Notes under the pieces: generated by a model
Told to the model about the DNA's origin: nothing
The model's database searches: none
Seen by the model: the letters and a program-made list of their open reading frames with translations, nothing else
Assembly (NCBI GenBank): GCA_914767715.1
Contig: OU612071.1
Span: forward strand, 17,232,948-17,296,947
Length of the DNA stretch: 64,000 nt
Source of the DNA: Membranipora membranacea
Lineage: Eukaryota > Bryozoa > Gymnolaemata > Cheilostomatida > Membraniporidae
Direction: 5' to 3'
Program-made: the position numbers and the translations under genes
Shown here: piece after piece, positions 10,021 to 40,660 of the stretch
How the letters are laid out: the number at the start of each line of letters is the position of its first letter
Position numbering within the stretch: position 1 is the first letter of the stretch

Positions 10021-10021
10021 C

Positions 10022-10873: not shown

Positions 10874-11056
10874 CCACCACTCAATGTTAAGTACTGCGTT
10901 GTGACAGTTTCATACTCGCATCAAAATTACCATGAGAGAATTTTGAGCAGAGATTTTATCTCTCTCCAAGTCCCGGTAGAATAATTTCCCCCATTTACAT
11001 CCTTGAGAATTTGCTATCAAAAGGCCTACAAGACTGGCTACTTCTCTAATTGAGAT

Positions 11057-11690: not shown

Positions 11691-11863
11691 AAGTCAATTC
11701 ACTTCAAAGTCAATTGCATCATACTCACTAGATGAGAATTTTATGGGAATTTTATTTTGAATTGGAAAACTTTCAAACTCCGATTTGTATCCAGATATGC
11801 AGTTCAGAATGTAACTGTCAGAGGTTATAGATTTCCATGTCAATAAACAATCTTTAAGTGCAC

Positions 11864-15904: not shown

Positions 15905-16825
15905 GACATTTTCTCTATTTCTGCTCTCTGTTGCTCAGTAGTGAAGGGGAACCAGGCTGCAGCTGCATGGCTAATCGTTGGTATGATTTGTGATTTATAC
16001 ATAAATGTATAAGAGAGCCCTGGTCTACACCTGACTGTTTGAGAACAAGCAGGCCGTGTATCTTTCGATTGGTCGACTTGCGTCTCTCTGCGATGTGGTC
16101 CGAGAAAGTCAGGTGAGAGTCGATGGTGACGCCGAGTAGCTTACTAGAGGTGACATTTTCTATGTCGAAGCCATCGATTGTGAGATTGTTTTTCATTATT
16201 AATTCTTTCCGTAGAGAGATGTTTAGTGACTTTGTTTAATGTGTGTTGAGCTTCATCTTATTAGCCATTGCCCAATCAGAACACTGATTCACAAGTTCTT
16301 GGCCTATGTTCGGTACAACAAACTCAACAGATGCTTTCGTATTGCTGATGGTATTAGTTTGTTCTTTAGCTAGAGGATAGATAGTGGTAGTGTCATCAGG
16401 ATATTTAATAGTCGTTCCATGTTGGAATTGGAGCAAGTTTACGAATGCTAACCAAAGCACAGGGCCGCACAGTGTACCTTGAGGTACGCCGACGTTGTTC
16501 TTCAAGTATGTAGAGGTGGTGTTATGTTGTCGAATGGCTACACAGTGCTGACGATCTTGCAGATAGTGTGCTACTAAGGCTATTGATTCCTCAGACACAT
16601 CTAGGGATTTCAGTTTTGACAATAATATCGAGTGGTCCATTGAGTCAAATGTCTTGCTGAAATCATAGAAATCATATCAAGTGTACAGTCATGACCTATT
16701 ACTAGACTGATCTCACAATCTTGCATTGGTGTGAGATGGAAGTCAAGCTTTGGCGTTTGGCGGCAGAGATTGGATTGCTGACCACTGGCTTTGCTGCTGG
16801 AGTTGTACTTCAGCAGCAAAGCCAG
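15905..16825 (-). pseudogene. Non-LTR retrotransposon reverse transcriptase fragment
   Basis: The minus strand encodes, in two broken frames, the LINE series VDHSILLSKL-like (here MDHSILLSKL), GVPQGTLCGPVLW, then a decayed catalytic box KYPDDTT (normally Y-A-D-D), DWAMANKMKLN, and after a frameshift SSKLLGVTIDSHLTFSDHI. These correspond to reverse-transcriptase motifs and the thumb region of CR1/jockey-like elements. Endonuclease and ORF1 are missing, so this is a 5'-truncated dead copy. Confidence 0.8.
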
Positions 16826-20520: not shown

Positions 20521-20825
20521 TGTTTAAGAGCATTCCTGGCAGTTCAAGTTTCCCTTTTTTATGACATTTTAAGAAATTTGGTAATATGGCGAGAAGTATT
20601 TTGGAGAGAAGAAAATGATCCAGACCCAGGTGAGGATTGGTGGGAGAAAAGAAGTCTCCCTCACAGTTATAGTTGTTCTAGTGAGATACGGCTAATCGTA
20701 ATGGAGAGGAGATGCAAGTCTGCTGTCACACATCTTAGGATTAGTCATGAAGAATTACTACGCGATCAACTTAGTGAACCACTGAGTAAATCTGTCAGAC
20801 ACTTATGTGTAGAAGGTGGAACCTG
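20521..20825 (+). CDS. ROCO-caspase exon 1 (visible): N-terminal segment of unknown fold
   Basis: The acceptor is TTTCTTTCAG and the donor CTG|GTAAGT, with phase 0 in and phase 2 out. It encodes 101 residues starting CLRAFLAVQVSLFYDILRNL, hydrophobic and probably helical. A charged, Trp-rich stretch (REVFWREENDPDPGEDWWEK) follows, then HLRISHEELLRDQL and SVRHLCVEGG, which leads into the repeats. I do not recognise a CARD, DED, Death or TIR domain. An alternative acceptor (TTTTAAG, 20573) would shorten it. Confidence 0.65.
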
Positions 20826-23800
20826 GTAAGTGATCTATCTGAAAGTTCACAGTTATAATATCTTTAAGGACATTTCATGGCCTGGTTAAAGGGCAACCAA
20901 GGTTTCGCAGCAATGCATTTATGGATAGTAAATAATGTGCTAGGCAGCATCAGCTTTGTGCATTACGCGATGCAAAACTCAATTTAGTTGCCGACTCAAA
21001 GCTGGGTAACACTTCGGTTCAGGGGAGGTTCCAAGACATTGCTGTAATGATGATAGAGCAAAGGCTAAATAATAACAGGAACAGGAAACTGCTCTGTGGT
21101 ACTCTATTTTAGCTTAGTTTGAGTACCTGGTGGATGAAATGTTTCAGAAGACTTCTGGCTGATAAATCATCTGAATTAGATTTTGTCTTTTTCCCTCTGC
21201 AGAAGGTGCAATCGGCTATTAATCAATGAGGGCCAATGAGAAGTTGTTTGAAACCCTGGTTGCCCTTTAAAATTCAATGTCAGGCTACAGTGGTTTTGAC
21301 TGACATTCCACTCAAACAACTATTGGTTGTGGAAGTTAAAATCCCACTCTCACAATTGAGCCCTTTACTCGTCACAAGACCGAGCTATACTGTCATAATT
21401 CACAGTTTGTTTGCCTGAATATTATTTTTTTAGATCAGTAGAGGGTTGAGTTGTCAAATCATACTTTCCAAAGAACAGGCGTTTCACAACCACATCTAAA
21501 AGAGCCCTGAAAAGTCTTTGATTAACATTAAAGTTTTTTAACAGATTGCAATTATATCATAATACAATCAGATCAATCAGTGTACAATCATTCCTAATGG
21601 TTGAGTCAATGAGCAAGGTTCTACGATATTGTCACTGTTTTGAATATTCTCTAAAATTTGTTTCTTTTTAGGCTGAGTAAGGATTGTACTAATTTATTGA
21701 AATTCCTGGACCAGTTTCTTTCGTTGGAAGAGTTACATCTGGAAGGGTTAACTTTAGATGTCAATACCTTAAGGTATAGTACTTTCAGCAATATATTACT
21801 TGATTTTCTGATCAAATACAAATGTTCCTATTTTTGCATGCACATAGGTCGCAATCTATGCTTATTTGATTATCCAATGAAGTCACTCCCACAAACTTGG
21901 CTCGGGAGAACACCTTCAATGCTAAGGCATCTATCTCTTTATACCACAATTTATTTTGTATATTATCCATTTGTTTTGAATTATCTCATATTTGTGTTAG
22001 TTGTATGACTTTTGGAAAACTTAAAGCAATCGCTTTGATGAAATCAACCCATAACAAAAATACCTAATCTTAAATCATATCTCACAGAATTATTAAGTTT
22101 TACACATCGAAAACTATGTCGCAAGTGTGTAGTTTTGATTTTCAAATTTTTGGAGTTGTGCTCACCCACAAGTGAGAAGTGTCAGAACAATTCCACAAAG
22201 TAAACACTAGAACTAGAACGATGCAATCTGAATACCTTTTAGTTATCAATGGAAACTGTTTCCAATGACAATCTCACATCAATCCACCCTACTGACCATA
22301 TGTTTCCAAGTGGTTTAATATTTCGCGGTTAGCAGCGACAGAAACCGGAATACTTAAAAATAGCTAATCAACACATAGCTTGCAAAAAAATGATACAGAT
22401 TGATTATTTTTGATATACCATTGCTAAGTTTTAAGCCAAAAAAACTTTTCTATGGACTTAATAATCATTAGCTTAATATATTTGAATCTATGTATCCTAC
22501 ACACCTAACCAACTCAATATCGGTCAAACAAAAAATTGAAACCTGAGCTTAACTAGATCAATAGGATATAGGCCTATCTCTCCAATAAACTGAAAAATTA
22601 TTTTAGTTTGGTTTAACCAAAGCTTTTGAAAAGCATGTGATTTTGTAGCATTTTTTTATTCGGTAAAACATTTCTGAACAAAGCATACAATGGTGGCAAA
22701 CGAATAAAACCCATCAAAACAGAATCAGCCAACAGTAAGTGGCAGAGACAGTGGTGTCATAATCCATATTTGAGATATTTTTTTTGTTGCTGCCACAGCT
22801 TCCCGCTGCCCAAACTTAATTAAAAATTTCCAATTGCAACATGTTCGATCTGGAATAATAATCACTTTTGTGATATTTATGAGCCATCATAGTATTGGAG
22901 TCCCTTGGTGTATTGCAAGGGCGCTACACTATATCATACTGTGATTTTTTGTACAAAATTTGATCAGCTTTCTCTACCAACAAAATTTAGGCATGTGCTA
23001 ATTCATGCAACAATCACTACCATTAAATAAATAAGTAGCTTGCCACATAACTGACAATGGTTTGTTCACATAGCAAGTCCTCGCAATTATAATCCAATAT
23101 TTGGCACCTGCACAATAGAACTGATAAAGCATAACTCCAAGATAAACCCATGTTTCAAAACAAGATACGTGCGACATAGTTTCCGATGTGTTAATCTTTT
23201 TTTTTTTCAAATAAATAGTGTTTTTCACTTGGCTGGACTAACAGAGTTTTGATGGGCTATTGTTTATGAAAAATATGCCGTACTAAGATTTTCCAGTCGT
23301 CCATGATCCATGATCCATGCCAAGGCAGAGAAATGAAAATAAGTGTGAGCTAATCCGCCTGATAATGGTTTGACAAAAAACAATGCTAATATTGAAAGAG
23401 TCACAGTTATTGGATGTCATTTTATTACCTATCATTCCAGTCTACAGCTACCCTCTCTCAAAAAGTTGGATATCATTGAAAATAACTCGTTGAATCAGAA
23501 CAAGCTTGTTGAGAAACTTAATGGTCTACCGCAGTTGAAAGAGTTGAACCTGTCATGGTCTGAGTTTCCTGAAGGGTATGTATAAATATGTCTTACTTTT
23601 TTCAAGATTTTCATTCAAACCCGTCCAGTTGAAGTGTTCTTGGAATCTTCCAGCATAAGAACTAATATTCATGAGACCTCATCTTGGCCAGATACTCAAC
23701 ATGCCCATTTGTGAAAGGAATCAGATCAGTGTTTGATATAAGGTGTCACAGATGGTGTTCTTCAATTGAACTAATTTTTGACCATTCTATCTGTCTAGCC

Positions 23801-26800
23801 TACAGCTGCCAGTTCTTGAAAAGCTGGATATCAGCAGGAGTTGGTTGACTAACGATGGTAATCTTGCTGAGAATCTAAATGCTCTACTGCAGTTAAAGGA
23901 GTTAAACATATCTTTGTGTGGACTTTCTATGCTTCCTGAAGGGTATGTCAATGTGTGTCACTTTTTGAGAGATATTAAATCAAATTAGCTCATTTGATTT
24001 GATCTTTGACTCTTCCAGGACAAGAAATAACATCCGTAACACCCTCTTTTAGGTGTATCAGTCATCTTGTGAGTAGATTACAATAAAAAATTATAATTGA
24101 CATTAATATCAATGAGACTGATTTTATCCTTCCAGTTTACTGCTGCCCTCTCTTGAAACGCTGAATGCCAGTGGGAATGCGTTAGGCGATGATAAAAAAC
24201 TTGCACAGAAGCTGAGTTGTCTGAAGCTGCTGAAGGATTTGAACATTTCACGGTGTGGACTCTCTGAGTTTCCTGAAGGGTAGGTGCATTCTTATAAGCT
24301 TTCACAGACTGAGATAAAACTTGTAAACACCAAAGATTAATAAAATAAATTGGATAATTCATCTGTGGGTCAGGCAACAAAATGTAGATAATATGTGACA
24401 CCATCAATGTACGTTGATGGTGTCATAGAATATCTGGTTGGTATCAGACACTCATCAAAGTTAGACGTCTCTCAAAGATACCTAGCACCCTCACCCAAAA
24501 GGACTAATTCAAACACAGACTTTTCAAGCACCACAACAGTTGACAGTTCCATGTTTTCGGTTGAATGACTGTCCCCCATGTTTGAAAATCCAGCTCTTTG
24601 GTAGAGGAGCTATCTCTTTAGGCACTTGCATCGCCATTTCAAGAGAGTCTAGTCTCATGTGACAGTGCAGCTACATCGGTATTGTATTTCTCCTGCTCCT
24701 TAGTCACCATTGCAGTCTGGCGTTCTGGTCTTGCTGATCTGGTTCGAAACATGCGTTGTTTTAGACAAGATTGTTCTCACTCTACCAAGTTGTCTTCCCA
24801 CTGCTTGTTGAGGCCAGCGGGTCCTCAGCATAAGGAACAATCTAAGCCCCAAGCTACCAATGTGCCTAACCAAGTGAGCAGGACTAAGGTGATCCTGGGC
24901 ATAAGAAAATATGTCATATCTTACTTGAAAATTGCTGTGGAACCATCAAAACAAATCCTAGCACTTAGGGTAATCTGCTTACTACTTGTGTACTAAGGCT
25001 GCTTTGAGAGCATATCTAAATCTAGATTACCTGGCATAGGGATCGTACTGCACCCTTCAAACAGAAAAAAGTTGAAAATGTTTTCCCGTCTTGTGCAAAT
25101 AAAAATTATGAGGGGAACACAAGGTTTACATTGTCCTCAGTATTTTTTCACATTTGTAATCCTAGCTATATCACATAGAAAAGACCGATTCTTGCTCTAC
25201 AGCAGTGAATGGAAACTCCCCAATATCTTATTAACATAAAGAATTTCTGAGCAGGTAGTGTGGCTAATGGATATGATCCCTAAATGAAAGTGGGTCAATT
25301 CTGAACAGGTTGGGCATACATTATCTACCAGGCTCAGAATGAACTATGCTGAAAACTAGAGAGCATTTTCCTTCCAAGCACAAATTCAGATTAACAAATA
25401 ATATAAGAAGCAGTAAGTAGTGTTCGCAGCCCTGACATTAGCAGAAACCTAGATGCAGGTAAACAAACAGAGGCTCTCATCTTCGACCTCTTCAGAGCAC
25501 ATGACAAAGTAAACCATCAAAAGGTTCCAACCAATCTTAAAGGAGTGTGCTATTCAAGGCAGACAGTCACCCTACTCCGCATAATTTCAACAATTTAACA
25601 ATATAATATAGACAAATAAAATTAAGAAAAATGCATCGGATTAGAAGAGGACTCCTACTCGAAAGGGAAAAACACAGCACTAATACCACCAAACAGTTCA
25701 ACAGAACTCTTAAATTCATCAGGAGAAATGTAACCAACACAACTGACGGGATGAATTCCTTTGCCTACAGCTCGGCAAACACTTACTCAAGTGCACCTGC
25801 AATTTGTTGAACTTACCAGCACAAACCTCCCTAAAACGAATCTGCGACAACTTAACCCGAGCCAAACTTGGCCCCGAGCCAAACTTGGTCCGAGCCAAAC
25901 TTGGCCTTATGTAGTAAAACTTGGTCCCAAATACCAAAAGTTGGCGCCGATTAGAAAAACTTGGCCCAATGCAATGAAACTTGGCCCCGATTAGTAAAAC
26001 TTGGCTCCATGCCGTTAAACTTGGCCTCAATTAGTATAACTTGGCCCCAAATACTAAAACTTGGCTCCAAATATATAACTTGGCCCCATGCAATGAAATT
26101 TGGCCCTAAACATGAAATTTGGCCCCATGTGTTGTGCTTTCAATCAAAGAAGAACAAACATAAATTCGGTATTTATTTTGCAGTAACAATGTTTTATTAC
26201 GATTTCACATTGAGACGACAAAATGATATGGTATAATAAATGAATATAATAAGCACAATTGTAATCTGTATTATCAAACTCTGCGTACAGGATCTCAGGA
26301 CTTTTTTGTTCCTTTTTTCACTGTGAAAAGAGAAGGAAAGACTTACCATGACCAGGATTCAACCAATGCAAATTATCTTCACATGTTATATGCACAGTGA
26401 TTCTGTTTCACATGAGATCAAGTGGACGTGATAGTAGCCTCACCTATTTATATCTATGAGGGATGACTCTCGGTAATGAGGAATGGGCTTATCTTTTATA
26501 TATTCGATATCATTTTTTTTCCACCTCTCATGTCACACGGGGACGGGGATTTTGATCTATAAATTTGCTATAATATGAGAGTGCATTATCATCCACTACT
26601 GAGGTGGTTATAGTGATTGGTGATCAAAATCTGTTATCTGCTCTACTAGATACTTAATATTTTCCACTCCTGAGGTGGGATAGAGAATGCTCTATGCTGA
26701 CAGGCTATGAGCCAAATTGCTATGAATGACACATTGCATCAGTTATGGGGAACGCTTAAAGCTGAGTAGCTATCAGCTAATCAGCTACATGTGATACCTT

Positions 26801-29800
26801 AGTATCTTTAAATCCCATAGGGTGATATCGAGATTGATGGACATAGATTGTCTGTAAGCTAAACTGCCTTATGTGATACCGCGGTTTCTTCTACTCTCAT
26901 AGGATAGCGATTGATGGGTGACAATCTGCTTTCAGCTTATCTACTATAGGTGATACATGGCATCAATGTAGAGATTGCTTATGCTGAACTGCTATCTCGT
27001 AGTCTGCTATATGTGGTACCTTCCACTCCCATGTAGTGGTATAGCAATTTGTCAGATGATGAACTGCTATTAACTAATCAACTATAATGTGACACCTAGA
27101 TACCGTAAAACGATTGCTCAACGCTTATCTACTGCTTACCTATGATGGTGATCTATAGCATAAGCATACTGTATATATCTATTTATTTCCCAAACTCCAT
27201 CCAAGTCTGATTGTGATTGACCAAATTGGTCAGCAGGCAGAATGGAACAAGCTCAGAAGGGATCGAGCGTTTTTAGTGATATAATACAAATCTCAGCTGA
27301 TATGTATAAACTTATGGTTGTATTCTCCGTAGAAGCATTAAGCAGAGGATAGTATGAGATAAAGGGAAACAACTGCTGGAAAACTAAATTGTCACCTCAA
27401 AAGTTTGTCATTATTACCAGCCAAGTAGTGTAATTAGGTGTTATGTGACAATAGGAGCTCTGCCCTCTTGTAATGAGAGAGGACAACTCATTCCATCTCA
27501 TAACACAATATACTGATGGTTGACCTCATGTACTCATGACACAAATTAGAACAAAAACTAAACAACAATATTAAACTTGGCCCACAATATATAACTATTT
27601 GACAAGCGATTAGTGTCTATATGTGACTCAGAATTTAGGCTATTGATATCAAGCAGAAGCAAATAGCCATATATGAGTTGACAGACAGAAAATAACTTCT
27701 GACTTGAGAACTACTGCTTACTAGCAACTAGCTTAACATCTGCATACAGGCTGAAATGAGATCCAGAATTTTTAGGAGTGTGATGAGAGTCATACTGATG
27801 GATCAATCAAATCTAGCAGAGCCTTAGCCTACTAGCAGGATGCGATCAGGACCTTTTAGCAAGTACTGATGTACTGATTAACAATCCTACTAAGCACAAA
27901 AAAAGCACTAAACTTTGAAACTTAGCGCTACACTAAAATGTTTGCTCCAAATATATTCAATCATTCACATCCGCACTTGCTATTAGGCCCTATTTGGCCC
28001 TATATACTTGAAATTGGTGCGGGGAAAAAATACCTGTTCTTAGTCCCAAACACTAAAACTCGACCTCATACCCTATTATTTGTTAAAAACACAAATCTTG
28101 GCAATGAGAACAGCTTTGCTGCTAGATTATCTAAACTCAGCATCGAATAATCTCGGTTTTCTTATGAAATCAATTGCTCATTATTGTAAGTTTTTGTAAG
28201 GCAGTGAACAGCTCAACATACAAAGGTGAGTATACAGAAAAAAGTCGGTTGTTCAACAAAAACGATGAGGCAGCATTTATTTAATTTTCACACAGTAAAT
28301 AAGATCATTTTTGTTAAAGAGTGAAACGGTTGCTGTTCGAAGAACAAACCGTTCTGCTGTTGAATATTGTCTCGTCACAAGTGGACTTTATACCGGGCTG
28401 AGTAGGAGTTTCTTGTACAAATGTTCAGCTGCCCAGTTTAAGACTGTTCTACAGTATGACCTGGCGATGCAGCTAGTTTGTCATGTCAACGAAACTGAAT
28501 TGTAAAAACCTTGCTCAAATGAGCTTTCATGTGGCATATATTAAGTATTACAGACAAACCACCAAACCAGATCACCAGGTCTGCTTACTGTATGTTTATT
28601 TCTGGAGTTATCTGTGTAATGCTTATGAGTGGCAATTCTGAAATCTAACAACAGCCACAGTATTTTTATCTGTGATAATTGCGTCATACAAATTTTTTTT
28701 AAACCTGTTAACTTGTCATGCCAAAAAGGGTTCCAGGTTGCTCATGTATGCATGCTTAGTAGTTAGCTGCCGTGGTCGATGTTGGTGTCTTTAGTCTACT
28801 AATAAATTGTCTCCAATCATCTCTGCTCTGCTCTAAGGGGGATGTCCTGATCTGTCAGGGTTCCTTTTTGAGGCATCGGAAATGCGTATTTCCAGTTCAG
28901 TGTCAAGCTTGTTGTTGTTGGTGACAGACGTACCAAGATACTTAAACCTGCTAACCATAGCAAGGTTTTCACCATCAATATGGATGTCATCGCCTGCGTC
29001 AGATAACCCCGGTGGAGGTTGGTACATCACCTCAGTCTTTTTTATGTTAATCTTTAACCCAAACTGTTTGGCTGACTGGGAAACGAGATATAATTTCCTG
29101 TGCATATGCATAGTCATGAGCAACAAATGCAGTATCATCTACAAACATAAGTTCACGTACTAATGCCCTTTTTGTGCTTCTTACAGATTTGAACTAACCA
29201 ATATTGAAAAGATCTGCACCATGTCTGGTTTGGATCCACACTCTTCGCTGAAAGTTTATGAAGGCATGAGTAAGCACCGCTAACAAATAGATGGAAAAAA
29301 GTGTGGGAGCAAGAACACAGCCCTGCTTCACTCCACTCTCAACCCTGAATGGTTTCGATAGTTCACCTTTCGCTGACTGATGCATTTATTCCTTGGTGTA
29401 GGGCCGACACATGATTGGTGAAATGGGCAGTTTCTTAAGAATAGCCAACAAGCCATCCCTGTTCACAGTGCCCAAAGCCTTGGTGAAATCCACAAAAACC
29501 ATATACAATGACATCCTATGCTCAACACAATTCTCTTAAATTTTCTTCAGGGAGAATATCATATCTACAGTGCCTTTGCCTGCGCGAATTCCACATTGTG
29601 CCTCTTGGAGTAAGACCTCTGCATAAGAGCTCAATCTGTTGAGTAACACACAGGCAAATACTTTACCAGGTATTGATAAAAGTGAGATGCCACGATATTT
29701 CCCATAGATATGCGATCACCTTTTTCACATAGTTATAGGTTGGTAAAGAGTAAAGAGTCAACAAATCTCATAAGGGTGCTGCACTTGTAGAGACCCTCCG

Positions 29801-32800
29801 AATTTGATAATTTCAGGGTGTCTTCGATCCGCACCGGGTGAATTTCTATTTCTGAGCATATACATAGCATTGTTCACTTCCTCCATGTCAGGAGCATCAT
29901 CCATCAAGGTTTGTATTGGGTGTTGCAGTAGGTTGTTGGTTGCTCTGTGGTTGACATCATTCCTTCCATTGGAAAGAGTGTTGAAATATTCTGTCTAACG
30001 AGAGAGAAGGTCTTTTTTCTCAGTCTGTTAGGTCTGATTGTCAGAGGAAAGTAGCTGATCAGATTAAGATCAGCGTGGTTTTTGACCTGATCATGATGTG
30101 GTCAGTGCTGCAGCTGGCACCTCTCATAGCTATAGTATCACCGATGTCCCACAAATCACGTTGGCGAGTGATAATGAAGTCGATCGGGTGCCAGTGTTTA
30201 GAACTCGAGTGCATCCATAAGTTTTTATGGCTCGCTTTGTGCATAAAACTCATGTTTGTTACCACCAGCTGATGTTCAGCACAGATAGACAGTAAAAGCT
30301 CACCATTGGAGTTGGACCTTCCAGTCCAGAATTTTCCAAACACAGTATTCCAGATCTCATCATTAAACCCGAAACCCCAACTCTGGCATTAAATTCACCT
30401 GGGAGCATGATTTTATCTTCTTTAGGTACTGTCTTCAAGGTGGAAGCCAGTTGCTGATAAAACTGTGTGATGGTCTCTGCGCTATTTGCCTTTGTAGATG
30501 CATACACTGCGATGATAGTAAAATATCTGTGCTTGTTTAAAGGGAGTTTAAAGGGCAACCAAGGTTTCGCAGCAATGCATTAATGGGTAGGAAATAATGT
30601 GCTTGGCAGCATCAGCTTTGTGCATTATGCGATGCAAAACTCAAAGTAGTTGCTGACTCTTAGCTGGGTAACACTTCAGTTTAGGGGACGTTCCAAGACT
30701 TTGCTGTAATAATTATAGAGCACAGGCTAAATAATAACAGGAACAGGAAACTGCTATGTGGTATTCTCTTTTAGCTGAGTTTGAGTGCCTGATGGAAGAA
30801 ATGTTTCACAAGAATTCTGGCTGAATAATCATCCGAATTATATTTTGTCTTTTTCCCCATGCAGAAGGTGCAATCTGCTATTAATCAATGGCCATCAATG
30901 AGAAGTTGTTTGAAACCTTGGTTGCCCTTTAAGGGTGATCATTTACAGGCTTGGGGTCTTCAGTCATGGCGATGACAGCATTGCTCACAACCAAGGCTAC
31001 TCTCGATTCACTCCTCATTCCTGAGATATTACCACTCCAGTATATTGGGTAGCCTGCCTCTTGCCTAATGCTACCAGTATCACCAAAACAAACCTCACTT
31101 AGTGCTCCAACATCAATTCCACATTTATTTAGCTTTTGTACAATAATGGCACTCCGCCTTTCTGGTCTATCTGCTTTATCACAATCAAGCATTGTTCTAA
31201 TGTTCCATGAAGCAAAGTTCAGATCACAAGTTGTTTTGACCTTTTTATCCTGGGTGACGCCCTGCTAGTAGGTATTTCTTTTATTGTGAGACTTCATGAT
31301 CCAAATTGGAATATAGCTTGCAAAGGATTTGTAAGGCTACTCTGAGTTTTGCGGGTTGTCAGAGCAGCCCCTCCACAAGCTGAGGAAACTCTGTACTGTC
31401 AAGGTGAGACTGAGACGAGTGCACATCCTCAGCTGTCGCAGTGACTGGCCAGATGTGCTGAAGGGTGTCACGCTCCTGGCTTATTTCCATTGTTTGTCTT
31501 CCCATAGATCCCCATATGATTAGCCTGATGTCCAGTTTCCAGTGGTGCCCGCGAGGAGGGATATATGCAGCCTTGGTATGCAGAGTCTGTATTTTACATC
31601 CTCAACACACCATTGGTGGCAGCTCCTGGTTTCTTTTGTCATCATTAGCTCCACCACAATCATGCTTACTCAGGAATTAAAGCTAAATGTGTTCTAATTA
31701 AGACTTCTATGGTCAATGGTGAAATTTAAATTTCTTGTGTCCCAAATAAATGATCATGGTAATATTTTGTAAACAACCTATGGAACGATGAAAGTGATTT
31801 TCAGCTTAAAGTTTGGTTATTCATAGATTGGCACATATTGATTGTAATGTTACATCATTTCACCTTACATTATTCATGGAAAGTTGGCTGAACTTCATAT
31901 CTTATAGTGCGTAGAGGCAAGTTTCAGTACATATGGCCATGTCTTACATTTGGGGCCAAGTTTCGCTAATTGGGGCCATGTTTCATTGCATGGGCCAAAG
32001 TTTTATAAATGGGGCAAAGTTTTACTAATTGGGGCCAAGTTTCAGTGCATGGGGCCTATTTTTATATTTTGTGCCAAGTTTCAGTATTTGGGGCCAAGTT
32101 TTCCTAATTTGGGCAAAGTTTCATTGCATGGGGACAAGTTTTATATTTTGGGCCAAGTTTTAGTTATTTGGGCCAAGTATTAGTTATTAGGGCCAAGTGT
32201 CAGTATGTGGGACCAAGTCTTATATTTGGGGCCAAGTTTTACTAATTGGGGCCAATTTTCAGTATGTAGGACCAAGTCTTATATTTGGGGCCAAGTTTTA
32301 TTAATTGGGGCCAAGTTTCATTTCATTGGGCCAAGTTTTAGTATTTGGGGCCAAGTTTTACTAATTGGGGCCAAGTTTTACTGCTTGGGGCCAAGTTTTA
32401 CTACTTGGGGCCAAGTTTTATTGCCTTCGGCCAAGTTTCATATTTTGGGCCAAGTTTACTAGTTTGGGCCAAGTTTTATTACATGGGGACAAGTTTTACT
32501 AATTGGGGCCGAGTTTTACTGCTTGTTGGGCCAAGTTTTACTACTTGGGGCCAAGTTTTATTGCATTCGACCAAGTTTCATATTTTGGGCCAAGTTTATT
32601 AGTTTGGGCCAAGTTTCATTACATGGGACTAAGTTTTAATCCATTGGGCCAAGTTTTATATATGGGGACATGTTTGGCTCGGGCCATGTTTGGCTCGGGC
32701 CAAGTTTGGCTCAGGCCATGTTTGGCTCGGGCCAAGTATGGCTCGGGCCAAGTTTGGCTCGGGCCAAGTTTGGCTCGGGTCAAGTTTGGCTTTGGCCAAG

Positions 32801-35800
32801 TTTGGCTTTGGCCAAGTTTGGCTTGGGCCAAGTTTGGCTCGGGCCAAGTTTGGCTCGGGCCAAGTTTGGCTCGGGTCAAGTTTGGCTCGGGCCAAGTTGT
32901 CACGAAATGTAGAAATGTAACCAACACAACTGACGGGATGAATTCCTCCGCCTACAGCTCGGCAAACACTTACTCAAGTACACCTGCAATTTGTTGAACT
33001 TACCAGCACAAACCTCCCTCGAACTCGCTACATATGACTGCAGGGAGACTGGCCAGCAGGATGAGAAAAGGCAACAGAGAGAAGCATGACATGGTTCATG
33101 CAGCACCTTGCGTTGAACAAGCTAAATGTTGGACAGAAAGACAGAAAACAGACCTGTGCCTAGTCTTCGCAAAGACATTAAACACCTACTTCACCATTCG
33201 GACACACAACAACATCTAATATTCTTCTTTGAATACTACTAAAGACTTGATTTCCCTCCCAATGTTAAGACAACTGCAGCTATTTGCCTCCCTGCCCTTC
33301 TCATCAGGTATCTGAATTAAGATACCAAGTACCAAAAGTAATTTACTATTATTTCACATCATCATTCTACATGCATATCGAAGGGCCAGTAACTTGGGCC
33401 GTTTGATAGTGTTAACAAGCTTGCTATGACTTAACCAAGAAAATATTGGTGAAGCACACCTTACAAATTCGACTTGTCCTGACCAAAGTATTTGTTTTAG
33501 GTTACAGTGTCTCCGTCATCTCGAGACCCTTAGATTGGTGCAGAACAATATTACAGAGATTCCCTCTTGGATAAACGACTTTCCTAAGCTCGAATACGTA
33601 CATCTTCAAGGAAACAGAACACTGAAAAGGCTAAATCGTTGTCTTAACAAGTCACCTCTCAAAACACTAGACTGTAGCGACTGCATAAACATCGTTGAGC
33701 CCCCATATGCGATATCCCAAGGTGGAATTACTGACATAAAGCAGTATTACTCAGATCTGGCATTAGGTGAAGAAAACTTAGTTGTTTCGACATTGGCCTT
33801 CATCGGACGGAGGATGGCTGGAAAATCCAGTGTGATCAAAAGTATTCGGAACAAGAAATTTTCGAAAACTGATAGGACAGCAGCTGCGACTGACGATCAA
33901 ACAACCAGCGTGTTTGATTTTGTTGAAATTTCAGTGGGATGTGAAGGTAATGATCCCCTTTCAGTGAAAGCTATTGATTTTGGAGGAGACGAGGTATACC
34001 AGTATTCATACCAGCTGACATTTAGAGATGACTGCACTCCTGTTGTGGTGGTCAATATCAAAGACTTTGAGAATGAAGCTAGGAAGTGGGGACGCCGTGA
34101 GGCAACTAGAAGAATCGTCTTCGACTGGATAGCACATCTGTATCTAAGTTGCACACATCTTGGGCGACCTATTTTGGTTCTTACACACCAGGATCAATAT
34201 CAGAAATCTGAATCGGAGAAGGTCAACTTCAAAAGATTACGGGAAACTCTCCTGCAAACCATCGAGGAACTTAAAGAGGAACTCCTCCTCCATAGTGGCA
34301 TCGCATCCGATATTGACATTTTGTGCGAGCCTGACACAAAGCTCTTTGCAAATGAAGACATTCATGAAATAGGATACCCAGAGTCACAATCGAGTTATAT
34401 GAGCATTTTCACACCTTTAGAGAGTACTCTGTACAAGAGGCTAGCATCGCATGTTTCCACGATTCCAAACACCTGGATGGATGAAATCAGGAAAATCCGT
34501 GAAAATAAGGAACCAATATTACGGTACAGCGAACTCCAATCCGGTCCGCACAAGTCTGCTAGGCTAGATGTAATTCTAACATACATGAAGCGCAGCGGGG
34601 ATATCTTATGGTACCATAAGGCTGTGACAGACAAGGATGGAAAAAAAAGAAAGATAGAGTCTGAAGGCTTTGAAGATGAAATATATCACAACATGCCAAA
34701 AGTCACAGAGGTCATCAATAAGTTGTTCAATCACAAAGCCAGTGAATGTAACTGGAACGGCGAATGGTCCAAAGGTATCATCACAGAACATGATCTCCAT
34801 CGTCTTTTATCACCAACTGGGACAAATGACAAGCCAGTCCCTGCATCCGTTGCAGTTTCCCTTCTGAAGAAATTCCAGCTCATATACGGACCGACCAAGG
34901 AAAATAAGATAGATACGTACGCAATTCCATGTTTCATGCCGCCTCGCAGTGCATCTATTGCAAAGAATGATATTAGTTTGCAATTATCTATGATCTTCAC
35001 TGGACTCTCTGTCCCAAGGTACACATACAACCAACTCACTGTGAGTTTTATGAATCAATTCAAGAAAGGGAGCAACCAATCAGAAGACCAGCTATACATT
35101 TATGGCAACGGTTCGTCTGCAAAACTCACAAACGGCAAAATGCAGATACATGTACATATGTGTCATCAAGTAGAAGATCAGAGGATTCTACTGAGAGTTG
35201 AAGCAGATGCTGAGGCTATTGAGACATGCTGGGGGATCTTGCTTGAAACGGTTGAGCAGCTGGACAAGGAAGTAAAGCAAGTATGGAAGGCAGCACAGAT
35301 CACATACGAAGTGCAATGTGCACACTGCACGCTTACAGATCAGCTACATCCACACATAGACACCGACCCTGTATATCTATGTAAGAAGATTGGAAAAGCT
35401 GTGCCCTGTCAACAACATCATCCGCATCAGGAGGGTATTCCAAACTGGCTTGTTCATCCATGTGAGTATATTATTGACAGGTTACATTATTATGTTTTAA
35501 CTCTTCAGTAAGACTTATGGTTGCCGAATTCAAGGTGTTGAAAAAGTGTTTTATATTTTATTCTTTCAACATGCATTAGGCCCCTTCCTTTTATTCTATA
35601 AACAATCATATAAAATCAATTGTCTCACACAGAAATACCAACCTATCCAAGCTAAAGTCAAAACTCAGGGCATCTATCTCATCTGAACAATATGCATATA
35701 AATAGACCACACCATGACACATGCTGTTGACAAGATAGCACTCATTTGACTGAAAACAACGATATGGCATAATTGTGCCAACTTTGCCAACAAAACACAG

Positions 35801-38800
35801 TTCAATTTTTCTAATACTTACACTGCTATGAATAAAGTTTGATTGCGGATCTCTTACTTTGGCACTTCTTCACCCATGTCTATCTCCAGCTGTAGCGATT
35901 CTGAGTGAGTCCTTTTCCAGCCTACAATATGACAGTATTGTTACAACTATGTTCTAACCTTTACCAGGCACAGTCATGAATACAGACGAACGGGACAATT
36001 ACATGTCCTATGTCAGAAAGTTCAAGCCAACTGAAGGAGATGAAATCATGGATGCTCTTAACACATATAAGAGTATCATTGAACTGGATCCGAGACCTCA
36101 ACAAGCTCTCCAGCCTGAGTACAAAGTTGAAAAAGTAAACAAAAACCGATGTGAATAAGTGAAAAATCAAAGAATATTTTGTGAACAATTTGAGAATATG
36201 CTCCTTTTGAGGTCATCATACACGCCCATGCCTTGATACTGGCACAAACAATCTGTTGTTGCTTTCTTTCTGAATTATAGGATTACAGGATGACAGAAAT
36301 AAGAGGACGGGTGCTCATCATCAACAACAGATGTGTTTCTGGAGAGTTGAAGGAGAGAGTAGGCTCTGAATATGATTATGACAATATAGAGAGAATGTTT
36401 CGAAAGTTCGGATTCATCATCAGTGGATTCAGCATTGGGAGAGACAGAGACTGGACCGCTCAGGTATTGAACATTGATATTCCTGTCATATCATTAGAAT
36501 GCTTTGTAGCTTCAAACAGATGCTCCACATGTGCGGCCTTTTGAGGAGGGTAGGGTGGTATGTAACGATATGGGACACTTTCATGAACTCATTGAAGCAA
36601 AATACCATTCATTGCACCTATTATTAAGTCTAAAAAGTTATCTTCATGAAAAATTAATCTAATGACTTTCACTCAAAATTTCGTTTTGATAATTCATTGT
36701 AGGATATTGTTGAAACAATTTACAAAGAGACACAGTTAGTAGATACAAAGACCAAAGCATCACTTCACAGATCATTCGGGATGTTTGCTCTTGTCATCAT
36801 GAGTCATGGAGGTAACGGCACAATAGCTGGTAGTGATGGAATTGTGATCAGGCTACGAGACATTTACAAACATCTTCTTTCCTCAAGAAGTTTCCCTTCT
36901 ATGGCTGGAAAACCAAAGCTTGTTATTTCACAGGCATGTAGTGGAGGTAAGAAAGTATAAATTATGCATTCAGTAACATTGTACAAATTCAGTCAATTTT
37001 CGTTTCAGAACATACTGCACACTTGGCAATGCAATCTTTATTGAGAATTAGTCATTTATAAGTTTTTGAGGATAAATCAATACATGGAACTCCTGATATG
37101 CTCTCCTACTCAAGCCTCCCATGAATGATAGTCATTCCCTGTTTCAAGCCGAGAGGGAGCAGCTAGATGGTAGTGCGAACAGTGTGCATTCTTCTGGATG
37201 TACATTGAAAAAGGATCAACCTGCTAATGACGATGTTCAATCTGTACACCCCTGCCCTCCGCACTCAGATTCTTCAACAGAGTCGGACACAGAACCTCCT
37301 ACTAAGGTTCCACGATTATCAAGTAGCAGTGAACAACCATCGGATGTCAACCTACCCCAGCAGAGTGACCCTACAAAATCATGTAATATTTTGAGGATCA
37401 TAAACAGAAATTCGAACCAGTAGAGTGATCTGAAAATAGTTTTTACATTAGGAAACAGGGCTGTCAAGTGACGTTTGTCCCACTAGTCTAAACTGCCGGT
37501 AGAAAATTACTTGACCATATTCATGACCTCAGATTTTAACAGCATCAGTTTCTCTATAGTGTCATTTAAAACTTCATTCATGATTTTGTTTGGGATAATC
37601 AAATTTATTGTTTCTTTTTTATTTTCAACACTCTGTTCTCATTCTAATTCCTTTACTTTTTACTAATTAATCTTCATTATTTTGTATAGCAACTGGAGAT
37701 TTTCAGCCAAATCAGGATCCCATTCATTCTAATGAGGAAGCAGCTACTGCTCATCTCACTTCTGATGATCTTCTTGTCATGAAACCAAGCTTTGACGGTC
37801 TGTTTCTAATATATATACATTTTTTCTACCTACAGTGATAGGCACCTACTTTGACATGTGAACTGTGAATGTGAAAAGAGCCTATACTAAATCTTGATAT
37901 GATACTGATCGATTTCCCTAGAGATTAACTTTGGTGACCTCATCAAAACTTCTTTAACTCTCATGAATTGCTTCTACCTAAAACTCACTCTTAAACTGGT
38001 AAAGAGTTCATTTGATGACCTTATTGCAGGTGAAGTGTGAGCAGTGTATGGATGTCAGCTTTAGCGCCATTCATTTATCACCTACCAAATGAATGTGTCA
38101 AATCAAAATTATGTATTTATCCGTCATTGCTATGTTTGTGTGTGCTATTAAGATGTTTTGTGAGACGTTTCAGACCCCCCCCCCCCCCCCCCCCCATAAG
38201 ACAGTACTACTGCTGTCACATTGCCATCAGTTCACATATACTCGAAGACATAGTTAACCAAGCTTTTACTTTGCATTGTCTTACACATTAAAAATGTGAT
38301 ATGCTCTAGCTACTGGTCATACAACTATTTCAACACAACCAGCTTGAATGTTGTTCTTTGCTTGCAGGAAATTGCTCATTAAGATACCCAAAGGTGGGTT
38401 CTCCGTTTATCAGGATTCTTGTCTCAGCCTTTAACAAACTAGCTGGTAGGAAGGACTTAGTGAGACTTGGTGAAATAGTGAGTACACTCTTGTTTCCTCT
38501 TTTCAACATTCTCTCCTTCTCTGTATGAGAAGAGCCAGGGGCGTATATTCTAAGAAATTTCACAAGCTGACTTTTTAGAGATGAGCATAATGATCGGGCG
38601 CAGCCCTATTCACATGCAGTAGGCGTGGCGGGGAGGGTGTGGGAGGGGTGCTTAAGCTCCCACCACGGAAATTTTTGCATATCGGTAGCTAAATAGTGCA
38701 AGCAGAGAGGTATTTCAATAGCTCACTGAGCTGTTAGGTACTTTCAGAAAACAACTCAATAGCAGTAGAAGATTACGGTAAATAAACAATACGATTATAT

Positions 38801-40660
38801 ATATAGCCCAAACTCTGCTTAGTGTTTGTATGTATTGAATGGAAAGCAGAGTGGTACCGATTAGGGAAACTTATTATTCTGCGCTTTAAGCAGTCTCTTC
38901 TTGATAGAAAACTGTGAGGGCCCATGTACAAACTATGCTATGTGTTTATACATGTATATAACATGAACAAACAAATAATAGCTTTGACTTGAGATTCTGT
39001 GACCTGTGTACCTGTATGCCACATTATCCACCATTGGCGGTTGGTTGTTCAACATTACTGTGCAGTGTACTTTAAGTGAATCTCCGCTTGCCGTGCATTA
39101 CAGATTATGCTACTTGATAACTTCCTAAATAACTCTTTATATCATCATCATCATGCTTAATTAGGAAGCCCAATCTCCTGTTTTGAGGGTTTTGAGGGTT
39201 ATGGCTACCGTCATGTACCATCCTTGAATGAGCATCATTAATTAAATCCTGCAAAAATCTTTCTGTAATGTAAAGTAGAATTTTTTATAAAGATCAGTTG
39301 CTAGCGGCATTTTGAATGGAGTCGTCGCAATTTGGATTTTACCTGGCAGCTTGCTGCTAGGGTCATGTATATTGTTTCTGAATAAAACCGGAAAACTGCC
39401 AACAACACAAATTGTCGGAGTATCTTACAATTTTACAAAGTCTGTTCAGGAATATGTATAGCAAAAATATTCTAGCTAGCTAGTCAGTCCAATAGTCCAG
39501 TCAGCTCAGGCAGCGTGTCCCTGATTTATGTTCCTTTCACTGCAAGCTGTTTTGATTAGCTACTAGGCAACAGTGTCACATGTTCAATTCACCGGGCTTT
39601 TGATTGGCTTGTCCAGCTCAAGGTCAAAAGTCAAACTCTGTATGTGCCGTAATTCCTCACTTATAAGACACCTCCCTTGGGAAAAGTAAAAATGCTCCAG
39701 TTATAAAGCACCCATGTCAAAAAAAATCTGGTCTTGTTTGGGATTCAAACCCGCAACATTCCTAATAAACAGTGATCACTAGGCAGACACTTTACACACT
39801 GAGCTATTCAGCCTGGCTTTAAAAGCTGTGCTTTGATACGCGAGTTATAGGTGAGGAATTACAGTAGTAAGCTACACCCAGTCCCCATGACTTGAACACA
39901 GTAATCACGGATTTTCATTCATCCACTGAGAAGAGCTATATCTAAATGGCATTAAATTTAAATTGGAATACACACTGCTCAGAACATCAACAATTCTTAT
40001 ATGAGAATGTCCATCAACAATGTGGTGTTGAGCTCTTTGACATTATAGATCCAGGAACAAACAAGAGAGTCCAGTATAAAAAGTACTCGGGAAGCTCTTA
40101 GTGAGTGTATAAGTAACCCTCAATATGGACAGAACTCCATTACTATGAACACGTTCACACACGGCAGGAAGCTATACCTGTATCCTAGAGTCAACATGAG
40201 AACAGACATTCCAGCTGAGACCATCACTGAGGCTAATCAGCAGCTACCATCTGAGAATGAGAGAACAACTAAACTCGTCTGGGAAACTGGTCAGTCATCA
40301 TTAACAACTTTTAAATACAATGACTGGTGTATTATCAGAGCAGTAAGCAGACCTGATAAAGGGAAATAACAATAATCACCAAGTGTTGGATAAAAATGTT
40401 TAGGCTCCCACAATCAACCCAGAAACATGTGTTTTGATTTGGTCAAAGGAAGAGTAGACGTTGGAGGTGGTTAATGAAGAAGGAGTAATGAAGAATATGA
40501 AACAAAGGCATTGAATCATCTTAAGCATACTGATACACTTTTCTTATTTCTACCCATAGATGTTGAGGATGTAGAAAGGTGTGCAGGCTATGAGAAATTA
40601 CCAAGCACACGAAAGTGCTTCAGAGTAGAAAAGAATGTACAGAACCCAAACCAGCTATAA
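20521..40660 (+). CDS. LRR-Roc-COR protein fused to a caspase (5' end not found)
   Basis: Fourteen exons join in one frame: 20521-20825, 21672-21773, 23441-23575, 23799-23942, 24136-24279, 33501-35461, 35968-36134, 36281-36463, 36703-36946, 37149-37382, 37690-37797, 38368-38477, 40049-40289, 40560-40660. The sum is 4,179 bases, 1,392 residues plus TAA. Domains, counted from the first visible residue: unknown helical segment 1-105; leucine-rich repeats about 110-340; Roc GTPase about 370-520 (GRRMAGKS 379-386, DFGG 436-439, THQD 505-508); COR about 600-930; linker; caspase 987-1330 (His1082, Cys1126, p10 Arg1248). Roc-COR is a GTP-regulated dimerisation switch; caspases are Cys proteases of cell death and inflammation. 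An intracellular sensor-switch-protease role is inferred. The start exon is missing. Confidence 0.85.
20886..21270. mobile_element. 385-bp TIR element, copy A (in intron)
   Basis: Bounded by TTAAAGGGCAACCAAGG and CCTGGTTGCCCTTTAA, it is the same length as and highly similar throughout to copy B at 30548-30932. No open frame, so non-autonomous (MITE). It lies between the first two visible exons of the ROCO-caspase gene. Confidence 0.85.
21672..21773 (+). CDS. ROCO-caspase exon 2: leucine-rich repeat
   Basis: The acceptor is TTTTTAG and the donor AAG|GTATAG. It supplies LLKFLDQFLSLEELHLEGL, an LxxLxL core of a leucine-rich repeat. Entry and exit phases are both 2, so it can be spliced to any of the following repeat exons without a frame change. 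Confidence 0.75.
21774..23440. other. Intron, no feature recognised
   Basis: 1.67-kb intron of the ROCO-caspase gene. AT-rich with poly-T and poly-A runs. No further repeat exon with the LPxLxxLDI pattern is visible. Confidence 0.5.
23441..23575 (+). CDS. ROCO-caspase exon 3: leucine-rich repeat pair
   Basis: The acceptor is ATTCCAG and the donor GG|GTATGT. It encodes LQLPSLKKLDIIENNSL, then LNGLPQLKELNLSWSEFPEG: one inter-repeat half and one LxxLxLS-x-FPEG unit. Phase 2 to phase 2, like its neighbours. Confidence 0.85.
23799..23942 (+). CDS. ROCO-caspase exon 4: leucine-rich repeat pair
   Basis: The acceptor is CTGTCTAG and the donor GG|GTATGTC. It encodes LQLPVLEKLDISRSWL, then LLQLKELNISLCGLSMLPEG. 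Forty-eight codons, aligning residue for residue with the next exon, so the two are products of exon duplication. Confidence 0.85.
24136..24279 (+). CDS. ROCO-caspase exon 5: leucine-rich repeat pair
   Basis: The acceptor is CCTTCCAG and the donor GG|GTAGGT. It encodes LLLPSLETLNASGNAL, then LKLLKDLNISRCGLSEFPEG. The length of 144 bases and the phase are the same as in exon 4. The next exon lies 9.2 kb away but continues phase (GG + G) and repeat pattern. Confidence 0.85.
25425..25580 (+). pseudogene. LINE reverse transcriptase fragment
   Basis: The plus strand reads SRNLDAGKQTEALIFDLFRA followed by HDKVNHQKVPTNL. This is the palm start of non-LTR reverse transcriptases, where a catalytic-Asp strand (IFDLFRAHDKV, usually LDFSKAFDKV) precedes H-x-x-L. 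It is a fragment only, ending in non-coding sequence. Confidence 0.5.
25725..25832 (+). repeat. 108-bp direct repeat, left copy
   Basis: Starts AGAAATGTAACCAACACAAC and runs to AACCTCCCT; nearly identical to 32911-33019 in the same orientation. It adjoins the left minisatellite array. Confidence 0.85.
25850..26130. repeat. Minisatellite array, left (CCAAACTTGG type)
   Basis: Tandem units around AAACTTGGCCCC. The first three are 13-17 bases (GAGCCAAACTTGG); the rest are about 20 bases with variable middles such as GATTAGTAA or ATGCAATGA. This is the reverse complement of the array at 31940-32895, with the short units again next to the 108-bp repeat. Confidence 0.85.
26585..27150. repeat. Degenerate tandem repeat, period about 80 bp
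   Basis: About seven units recur in order: a CTGCTAT / CTGCTTTCAGCTTATCTAC segment, a TGTGATACC or equivalent, a CCACTCC / CTCTCATAGG segment, and GATAGCGATTGATGG or a variant. Lengths vary by a few bases. It has no coding capacity. Confidence 0.55.
28790..31255 (-). pseudogene. RTE-like LINE remnant, endonuclease plus reverse transcriptase
   Basis: From 31255 leftwards the minus strand encodes an AP-endonuclease start (ASWNIRTMLD, RPERRSAIIVQKL, IDVGALSEVCF), then, after an inserted 385-bp element, PLNKHRYFTIIAVYAST and MLPGEFNARVG. Next come reverse-transcriptase pieces FRVESGVKQGCVLAPTLFSI and FGLKINIKKTEVMYQPPPG, SRFKYLGTSVTNN. This motif series is the one in animal LINEs often mis-annotated as craniofacial development protein 2. 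Stops and frameshifts are many. Orientation is opposite to the host gene. Confidence 0.8.
30548..30932. mobile_element. 385-bp TIR element, copy B (inside LINE)
   Basis: Starts TTAAAGGGCAACCAAGG and ends CCTTGGTTGCCCTTTAA. It interrupts the endonuclease frame cleanly between the codons for about PVNDHP and KLPLNKHRY, so it inserted after the LINE. Copy A is at 20886-21270. Confidence 0.9.
31940..32895. repeat. Minisatellite array, right (GGGGCCAAGTTT type)
   Basis: About 35 units of roughly 20 bases (GGGGCCAAGTTTTACTAATT and variants) occupy 31940-32665. They are followed by about 15 units of 15 bases (GGGCCAAGTTTGGCTC) to 32895. It is open in several frames, giving repeated GPSF or ARAKFGSG peptides, but these are by-products of the repeat. 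Confidence 0.9.
32911..33019 (+). repeat. 108-bp direct repeat, right copy
   Basis: Nearly identical to 25725-25832, same orientation. Although the two arrays are inverted relative to each other, this flank is not. Confidence 0.85.
33501..35461 (+). CDS. ROCO-caspase exon 6: last LRRs, Roc GTPase and COR
   Basis: The acceptor is TTTGTTTTAG and the donor CAT|GTGAGT; 653 codons. It opens with LQCLRHLETLRLVQNNITEI and KLEYVHLQGN repeats. The Roc GTPase then shows the P-loop GRRMAGKSS, switch-2 DFGGDEVY and G4 THQD. COR features follow: ILTYMKRSGDILWYH, NMPKVTEVINKLFNH and LLKKFQLIYG. The C-terminal COR part has a Cys/His cluster (QCAHCTL ... VPCQQHHPH ... WLVHP) like that in MFHAS1-type invertebrate ROCO proteins. 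P-loop and Mg-contacting residues look intact, so GTP binding is expected. Confidence 0.9.
35968..36134 (+). CDS. ROCO-caspase exon 7: linker
   Basis: The acceptor is TTTACCAG and the donor AAA|GTAAAC. 55 codons of charged, probably helical linker (TDERDNYMSYVRKFKPTEGD) between COR and caspase, playing the place of a short caspase prodomain. No CARD or DED visible. Confidence 0.75.
36281..36463 (+). CDS. ROCO-caspase exon 8: caspase p20, first part
   Basis: The acceptor is GAATTATAG and the donor CAG|GTATTG. Encodes YRMTEIRGRVLIINN, the classic start of the caspase large subunit (Y-x-M-x-x-x-x-R-G-x-x-L-I-I-N-N), then ERVGSEYDYDNIERMFRKFG. The Arg before V-G-S matches the S1-pocket Arg of the R-x-G-T/S-x-x-D motif. 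Confidence 0.9.
36703..36946 (+). CDS. ROCO-caspase exon 9: caspase p20 active site
   Basis: The acceptor is TTCATTGTAG and the donor GGAG|GTAAGA. Encodes FALVIMSHGGNGTIAGSDG, with the catalytic His, and SMAGKPKLVISQACSGG, with the nucleophile Cys. The pentapeptide is QACSG; most active caspases have QACRG, QACQG or QACGG. Gln and Cys are kept. Confidence 0.9.
37149..37382 (+). CDS. ROCO-caspase exon 10: Ser/Thr/Pro-rich inter-subunit insert
   Basis: The acceptor is TTTCAAG (weak polypyrimidine) and the donor CAT|GTAATA (weaker than the others). It keeps frame with both neighbours. Its 78 residues, rich in Ser, Asp, Pro and Thr (HPCPPHSDSSTESDTEPPTK), form a low-complexity insert between p20 and p10. 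Several Asp residues could be processing sites. An upstream Met frame from 37121 is not used because it breaks phase. Confidence 0.6.
37690..37797 (+). CDS. ROCO-caspase exon 11: linker to p10
   Basis: The acceptor is TTTGTATAG and the donor GACG|GTCTGT, a weak donor. 35 codons ending HLTSDDLLVMKPSFDGN across the junction, the position of the DFL-x-x-Y-S-T-x-x-G strand that begins the caspase small subunit. Confidence 0.65.
38175..38195. repeat. Poly-C tract (21 bp)
   Basis: An uninterrupted run of 21 C within the intron between exons 11 and 12. Likely length-variable; exact length could be an assembly artefact. Confidence 0.9.
38368..38477 (+). CDS. ROCO-caspase exon 12: caspase p10, first part
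   Basis: The acceptor is TTGCTTGCAG and the donor ATA|GTGAGT. Encodes NCSLRYPKVGSPFIRILV, equivalent to the S-W-R-N-x-x-x-G-S-W/F segment; its Arg is the p10 S1/S3-contacting residue. Then AFNKLAGRKDLVRLGEI, the helix of the small subunit. Confidence 0.85.
38478..40048. other. Intron with a TIR element and tRNA-like sequence
   Basis: 1.57-kb intron between the two p10 exons. Apart from the element at 39648-39863, no feature is recognised. Confidence 0.6.
39648..39863. mobile_element. Short TIR element containing tRNA-like sequence
   Basis: Imperfect terminal inverted repeats (GTAATTCCTCACTTATAAG and its inverse CTCGTATAGGT-type copy, GTGAGGAATTAC) enclose a minus-strand stretch with an A-box-like TAGCTCAGTGTGTAAAG and a B-box-like GGTTTGAATCCCAA. 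It could be a tRNA-derived SINE inside a MITE, or a degenerate tRNA relic. No complete cloverleaf. Confidence 0.5.
40049..40289 (+). CDS. ROCO-caspase exon 13: caspase p10 C-terminus
   Basis: The acceptor is GACATTATAG and the donor CTG|GTCAGT. Encodes SECISNPQYGQNSITMNTFT then HGRKLYLYP, matching the Q-x-P-x-x-x-S-T-L-x-K-K-L-Y-F-x-P end of the caspase fold. About 35 further residues extend past the fold. Confidence 0.8.
40560..40660 (+). CDS. ROCO-caspase exon 14: C-terminal tail and stop
   Basis: The acceptor is CTACCCATAG. Encodes a short charged tail (DVEDVERCAGYEKLPSTRK ...) of 33 residues, ending QNPNQL-TAA at 40658-40660. Beyond the caspase fold; no known domain. A splice to a different last exon cannot be excluded. 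Confidence 0.65.

Follow-up and report, generated by a model that had tools for sequence, protein, structure and literature searches.

The locus on the plus strand of this 64,000-nucleotide stretch of Membranipora membranacea DNA (the window, by which the whole stretch analysed is meant) raises the question of whether a ROCO protein with leucine-rich repeats (LRRs) and a caspase are encoded by one gene or by two neighbours. From the sequence, a single protein seems more probable than two adjacent genes. It is quite likely that a single gene joins the ROCO part and the caspase part and, with a shade less assurance, we consider it probable that this gene specifies an intracellular protein built of N-terminal LRRs, a Roc-COR GTPase and an intact C-terminal caspase.

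In regard to the gene model, the chain of 14 exons extending from 20521 to 40660 (+) was rebuilt from the sequence (Table 1). After splicing it comprises 4,179 nt, corresponding to 1,392 codons and one terminal stop, with GT-AG borders at all introns and phases matching at every junction. The 14 exons in unbroken phase and the 1,392 residues claimed in the earlier note were thus reproduced, and this agreement suggests that exon 37149-37382 was already part of the earlier model. Position 20521 is an acceptor and not a start codon, and the first in-frame Met of the chain appears only at residue 61 (20701), so the 5′ end of the model is incomplete. Splice sites were scored with approximate general weights, not trained on Membranipora membranacea, and expressed as percentiles of the GTs or AGs in the window; by this measure, weaker sites include the acceptors at 33501 (top 14.9%), 36703 (top 17.2%) and 20521. 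Codon usage was assessed with a rough test trained on the large exon 33501-35461 against a background of 400 open stretches, and this test gives no support to exon 38368-38477, a clear p10 exon, nor to exon 2. The first two exons are tentative, backed by little except frame and phase: exon 1 received slight support from codon usage, while exon 2, with an acceptor in the top 0.1% of AGs and a donor in the top 8.8% of GTs, fell below zero.

Table 1. Proposed features of the ROCO-caspase locus, with positions in the window
Feature	Position	Strand	Basis and remarks
Proposed exon 1, N-terminal region, tentative	20521..20825	+	Open frame; donor top 0.3% of GTs, acceptor top 11.6% of AGs
Proposed exon 2, tentative, LRR-like by eye (FLSLEELHLEGLTL)	21672..21773	+	Phase 2 in and out
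LRR exon a	23441..23575	+	Phase 2-2; LRR_4 0.0025 on ORF, below cut-off
LRR exon b	23799..23942	+	Phase 2-2; LRR_6 0.0078 on ORF, below cut-off
LRR exon c	24136..24279	+	Phase 2-2; self-similarity to a and b
9.2-kb intron	24280..33500	+	16/20-bp tandem repeats; reverse-transcriptase-like sequence on - strand
Large exon: last LRRs, Roc GTPase, COR	33501..35461	+	Pfam, homologues, predicted fold; phase 2 in, phase 1 out
Exon after COR	35968..36134	+	Linker of 55 residues, or start of a separate caspase at ATG 35977
Caspase p20, first part (LIINN)	36281..36463	+	Peptidase_C14 profile 1-43; alignment
Caspase p20, second part	36703..36946	+	SHG, QACSG; Peptidase_C14 1.7e-10 on ORF
Optional exon, Ser/Asp/Pro-rich inter-subunit linker	37149..37382	+	78 codons, phase 1-1
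Caspase p10, start (DDLLVMKPSF)	37690..37797	+	Alignment to caspase-3
Caspase p10, core (NCSLRYPKVGSPFI)	38368..38477	+	Alignment to caspase-3
Caspase p10, C-terminal part	40049..40289	+	Phase 0 in; reading ends GRKLYLYP
Last exon with stop codon	40560..40660	+	Exon chain

By Pfam, by its homologues and by its predicted fold, the large exon is an LRR-Roc-COR unit. The Pfam search proposed in the earlier note was run on the chain and placed LRR_4 (4.9e-07), Roc (9.5e-07, 29.5 bits against a cut-off of 27) and Peptidase_C14 above cut-off, with COR-A below it when judged from the single sequence (0.00099, 19.5 bits against 35.3). The Roc GTPase has an intact P-loop (GRRMAGKS at 33805) and, with DFGG at 33976 and THQD at 34183, a complete set of GTP-binding motifs. 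That COR directly follows Roc, as in ROCO proteins, is indicated by PF16095, which is carried by two homologues (P0001 and P0002) aligned across the COR region, together with the predicted RocCOR fold. In the fold search, LRRK1 (8.9e-19), LRRK2 and the Chlorobium tepidum Roco protein ranked first, the predicted structure of the large exon having a mean pLDDT of just 63.8. In a PDB sequence search, the large exon alone gave 12 matches, all to LRR regions only; with an 8-row alignment as query, LRRK1 and C. tepidum Roco were present among mostly LRR matches (best 60 of 244).

When the large exon was used as a query, eight proteins were found at E 0.01 or better, among which P0001-P0007 share 29-37% identity with it (34% over 97-98% of its length for P0001 and P0002). 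Seven of the eight were aligned, P0008 being excluded (E 6.9e-4, 18% covered). This excluded sequence, a weak match of 1,149 aa on a 19-kb contig, combines ROCO parts with an immune-type domain of a different kind, its precomputed Pfam list including TIR, LRR, Roc, COR and PF19964. Neither the large nor the downstream exons gave a Pfam match to a kinase, which in LRRK proteins follows COR, or to NACHT or NB-ARC, as expected of an NLR, Roc being present instead. Likewise, the N-terminal kinase, ankyrin repeats and death domain of the DAPK1 type had no match in the parts scanned of a model whose 5′ end is incomplete, and LRRs are found in their place.

The three LRR exons upstream are 135-144 nt each, with about 50% mutual identity, and they join the large exon in phase and in register, following the common pattern GLQ..L..LE.L. 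In the 9.2-kb intron that separates them from the large exon, ORFs on the minus strand, one of which was scanned by Pfam, are LINE-like by eye; RVT_1 on 28833-29138 reached 16.7 bits, below the cut-off of 29.6. The middle of this intron is flanked by a 109-bp direct repeat of 97% identity (25724-25832 and 32911-33019), and related 16/20-bp satellites lie in opposite orientation beside both copies (25856-26129 and 31912-32898). A 385-bp interspersed repeat of 90% identity is shared by two introns of the locus (20886-21270 and 30548-30932), its second copy adjoining sequence that is LINE-like by eye.

In regard to the downstream exons, the sequence indicates that they constitute a complete animal-type caspase. 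Peptidase_C14 was matched at 5.1e-25 when exon 37149-37382 was included (88.9 bits against a cut-off of 21.4, profile 1-205 of 233) and at 3.9e-25 when it was left out, and the closest structures in a PDB sequence search were caspase-3/6/7 and -2, with a best E of 4.2e-12 (best 60 of 166). Both p20 and p10 with the His-Cys dyad and the Asp-specific S1 pocket, by which animal-type caspases are recognised, are present. The catalytic His (36805-36807) and Cys (36937-36939) align with the dyad of caspase-3, and the alignment with the same enzyme places the S1 pocket residues Arg, Gln and Arg at 36356, 36931 and 38382. These kept residues correspond, in the numbering and roles that we assume, to Arg64, His121, Gln161, Cys163 and Arg207 of caspase-3. 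The ORF of exon 40049..40289 alone had no Pfam match, and its GRKLYLYP ending presumably resembles the ends of p10 domains. CARD, DED and death domains gave no Pfam match, the exon before p20 gives 55 residues only, and the long prodomain with CARD or DED that marks initiator caspases was not found. Exon 37149-37382, a linker between the subunits with several Asp residues, has weak splice sites (acceptor top 10.6% of AGs, donor top 18.5% of GTs) and a codon usage reached by 0.5% of the 400 background open stretches; since its sites are weak and it is frame-neutral, its inclusion may be optional.

Judged by its sequence, this part of the chain is a caspase of animal type with the capacity to cleave after Asp. 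A catalytically dead caspase part, fused or not and devoid of protease function, would overlap with the other readings of this locus, and we consider it very unlikely. Two deviations speak for it, namely Leu at a pocket position that we take to be Trp206 of caspase-3, and QACSG at the active site, where the common caspase motif is QACRG or QACQG. However, His, Cys and all three S1-pocket residues are kept, and the caspase exons are free of stops and frame breaks. The domain content reported earlier, comprising LRRs, Roc with an intact P-loop, COR, and caspase p20 and p10, holds, and the active sites are intact.

The finding depends on whether one gene or two are present, and the evidence on this concerns chiefly the junction between the large exon and the exon after COR. 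Three of the seven aligned homologues (P0001, P0002 and P0005) can be aligned as far as this point; P0003 departs slightly before the exon end, and P0004, P0006 and P0007 stop or lose their similarity much earlier. In the three, resemblance to the large exon extends through the motif [IV]P..L..P and breaks off at the donor of the window, the next residues being CK, GN and CT, respectively, compared with CE in the window (T|GTGAG). Judged from the protein sequences, all four pairs are compatible with NGT plus a following purine, as expected of a phase-1 GT donor, and the CK, GN and CT pattern is what a gene caller reading through such a donor would print. The shared stop of similarity, combined with donor-compatible residues, argues that the end of the large exon is probably conserved. 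Furthermore, both splice sites are strong: in the window, the donor at 35461 ranks among the best 0.8% of GTs (expectation 0.023 per 50 nt) and its partner acceptor, 35968, among the best 0.8% of AGs. Among the 21 acceptors with a score of at least 2 in 35501-36600, the one at 35968 is the strongest and opens the longest in-phase reading (63 codons). AGs at least as strong and followed by at least 50 open codons occur twice per 64 kb on the plus strand, 35968 included, and twice on the minus strand; counting against one gene, a looser acceptor score of at least 5 with the same minimum of open codons yields 27 on the plus and 25 on the minus strand of the window. The exon opened in this way is coding-like in its codon usage, none of the 400 background stretches scoring as high, and it continues in phase into p20.

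Several features of the same interval are compatible with two same-strand neighbours, an MFHAS1-type LRR-Roc-COR protein and a stand-alone caspase of effector type, an arrangement that we regard as rather unlikely. Only 9 nt inside the exon 35968..36134, and thus within what would be the first exon of the caspase, there is an ATG (35977) from which a short-prodomain, effector-type enzyme could start. Caspases with short prodomains are ordinary, and the N-terminus supplied by this exon aligns weakly with that of caspase-3. The ROCO gene would then end either in a short terminal exon, for which in-phase acceptors exist at 35890 and 35921, or, if the donor at 35461 were unused, at the in-frame stop met on reading past it (35511), and the AATAAA at 35831, between the large exon and 35968, could be the end of its transcript. 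On the other hand, the end of the ROCO exon resembles a conserved donor in the three homologues that reach it, which makes it improbable that most transcripts read through to 35511. Likewise, the strongest downstream acceptor keeps the phase and is the one at the start of the caspase exon, and no acceptor scored in 35501-35967 has both a comparable score and a comparable open reading. Between the linking exon and p20 there is a weak donor, 36134 (top 13.9% of GTs), which counts against one gene yet bears on both models.

One locus could also give several products, the fusion being made alongside a separate caspase and a protein limited to the ROCO part, through alternative splicing or transcript ends. 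A good joining intron does coexist here with plausible independent ends and starts, and exon 37149-37382, being frame-neutral, could be skipped without breaking the frame; even so, we would hardly expect such a mixture. One gene is favoured because the exon end is apparently conserved, the splice sites at 35461 and 35968 are strong and the phases match. The earlier claim of a single chain is supported to this extent, with the two-gene arrangement standing beside it as the unlikely alternative described above.

Homologues carrying the two parts together were sought with a joint Roc-COR-caspase query (residues 80-1115 of 1,115), and none was found among 6,489 thinly sampled candidates, no candidate reaching E 0.001. 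This search missed the homologues that were later found with the large exon alone, which points to thin sampling and makes it weak evidence against the existence of ROCO-caspase homologues. A search with the homologue alignment gave no relative among 59 pattern-matched stretches of genome contigs or 100 such stretches of viral contigs. Within the 64-kb window, tblastn revealed no paralogue outside the locus at E <6, and Rfam gave no match at gathering score.

Comparison with known systems shows which parts of the predicted chain are familiar. LRRK1/LRRK2 and C. tepidum Roco have the same LRR, Roc (GxxxxGKS, DxxG, THxD) and COR parts and the same predicted fold, whereas in the window COR is followed by a caspase and not by any match to a kinase. 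LRR-Roc-COR without kinase is shared with MFHAS1-type ROCO proteins, and P0001-P0007 are of this layout as far as the exon shows; the chain in the window differs in that it is predicted to run on into a caspase. In turn, animal caspases-3/6/7 and -2 share p20, p10 and the catalytic and S1 residues with the caspase described here, which would differ from them, if one gene is present, in being joined to LRR-Roc-COR.

A ROCO protein with a C-terminal peptidase is not without parallel, the relevant entry being IPR009003, which we take to be the trypsin-like peptidase family. According to a study covering brown algae, three brown-algal ROCO proteins carry a C-terminal IPR009003 peptidase, the LRR-ROC-COR arrangement with this peptidase defines group 3 of brown-algal and other SAR ROCO proteins, and the brown-algal ROCOs are treated as candidate immune receptors (PMC11378527). 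In group 3, as here, a C-terminal peptidase follows ROC-COR, but the peptidase is of another, non-caspase family and the hosts are not animals (PMC11378527). For animals, the study speaks of up to forty ways of combining ROCO with other domains (PMC11378527), among which a caspase is conceivable. In the placozoan Trichoplax, at least 17 ROCO genes with CARD, death, TPR, LRR and AAA parts are listed (PMC4104024), so the range given in the earlier note for animal ROCO proteins, namely kinase, ankyrin or death domains, was too narrow, placozoan ROCO genes with CARD and death domains being in print. Those with CARD or death domains (PMC4104024) likewise join a ROCO switch to parts of the cell-death machinery, but theirs are adaptor domains, through which partners would be recruited, whereas the chain in the window has the protease itself attached. 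Given these placozoan and brown-algal proteins, a ROCO-caspase would be a variation on a known theme.

Related to this, variable C-termini, some with a caspase effector, are reported for TRADD-N proteins of the sponge Amphimedon, which are likewise single animal chains combining signalling domains with a caspase; they have death-like and TRADD-N domains at the N-terminus, and no Roc-COR switch is described in the sections available (PMC8195603). ROCO proteins have been sorted into three groups, none of them described with a protease in the part of PMC6337361 at hand, and the word caspase is absent from both PMC6337361 and PMC6320773. No ROCO-caspase was found among the listed articles and the passages of them covered by the literature search, and the passages of PMC7159879, PMC11797021, PMC11508797 and PMC6321704 added nothing on ROCO.

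If the locus codes for one protein, the following mode of action could be proposed. The LRRs would bind a ligand, as their families suggest, upon which the Roc-COR unit may change its nucleotide and oligomer state and thereby bring two caspase domains together. The caspase would then be activated by proximity, with self-cleavage after an Asp of the linker between its subunits, and could go on to cut substrates after Asp, with cell death or inflammation as the outcome. Such a single chain would accomplish what Apaf-1 or NLRs achieve by recruiting a caspase, and would do so without CARD, DED or death-domain adaptors. The receptor-protease function, the ligand-triggered oligomeric platform and the likeness to NLR receptors are what we infer by analogy. 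We tentatively put forward, as a reasonable possibility, a self-contained receptor-protease in which Roc-COR takes the place of NACHT/NB-ARC and the caspase forms a covalent part of the chain; one animal protein would then combine sensing, switching and the execution of cell death.

Should one protein be made, the GTP state and dimerisation of a ROCO protein would become readable as caspase activity, an easy assay, by contrast with the GTPase-kinase link in the Parkinson's protein LRRK2, which is hard to read. It would also mean that ROCO GTPases, like the NACHT and NB-ARC ATPases, have served as switches for animal cell-death effectors.

The Pfam scan of ORFs in the window covered 20 of them (10 + 10), a part of all. 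Downstream of the locus, innexin matches on the minus strand lie above cut-off at 45406-45678 and 61879-62142 and below it at 46749-47039 and 61308-61595, and these innexin-like exons look like at least two innexin genes. They mark the DNA as that of an animal with innexins and argue against a sponge, since sponges are not known to have them. Upstream, a DIRS-like retroelement with approximate bounds of 9050-12466 (-) contains a tyrosine recombinase ORF of 323 aa (Phage_integrase 1.8e-07, above cut-off), an ORF with a Dam match (5.9e-05, below cut-off) and ORFs that are RT-like by eye, and a reverse transcriptase fragment of another element is located at 16236-16676 (-, RVT_1 3.7e-09).
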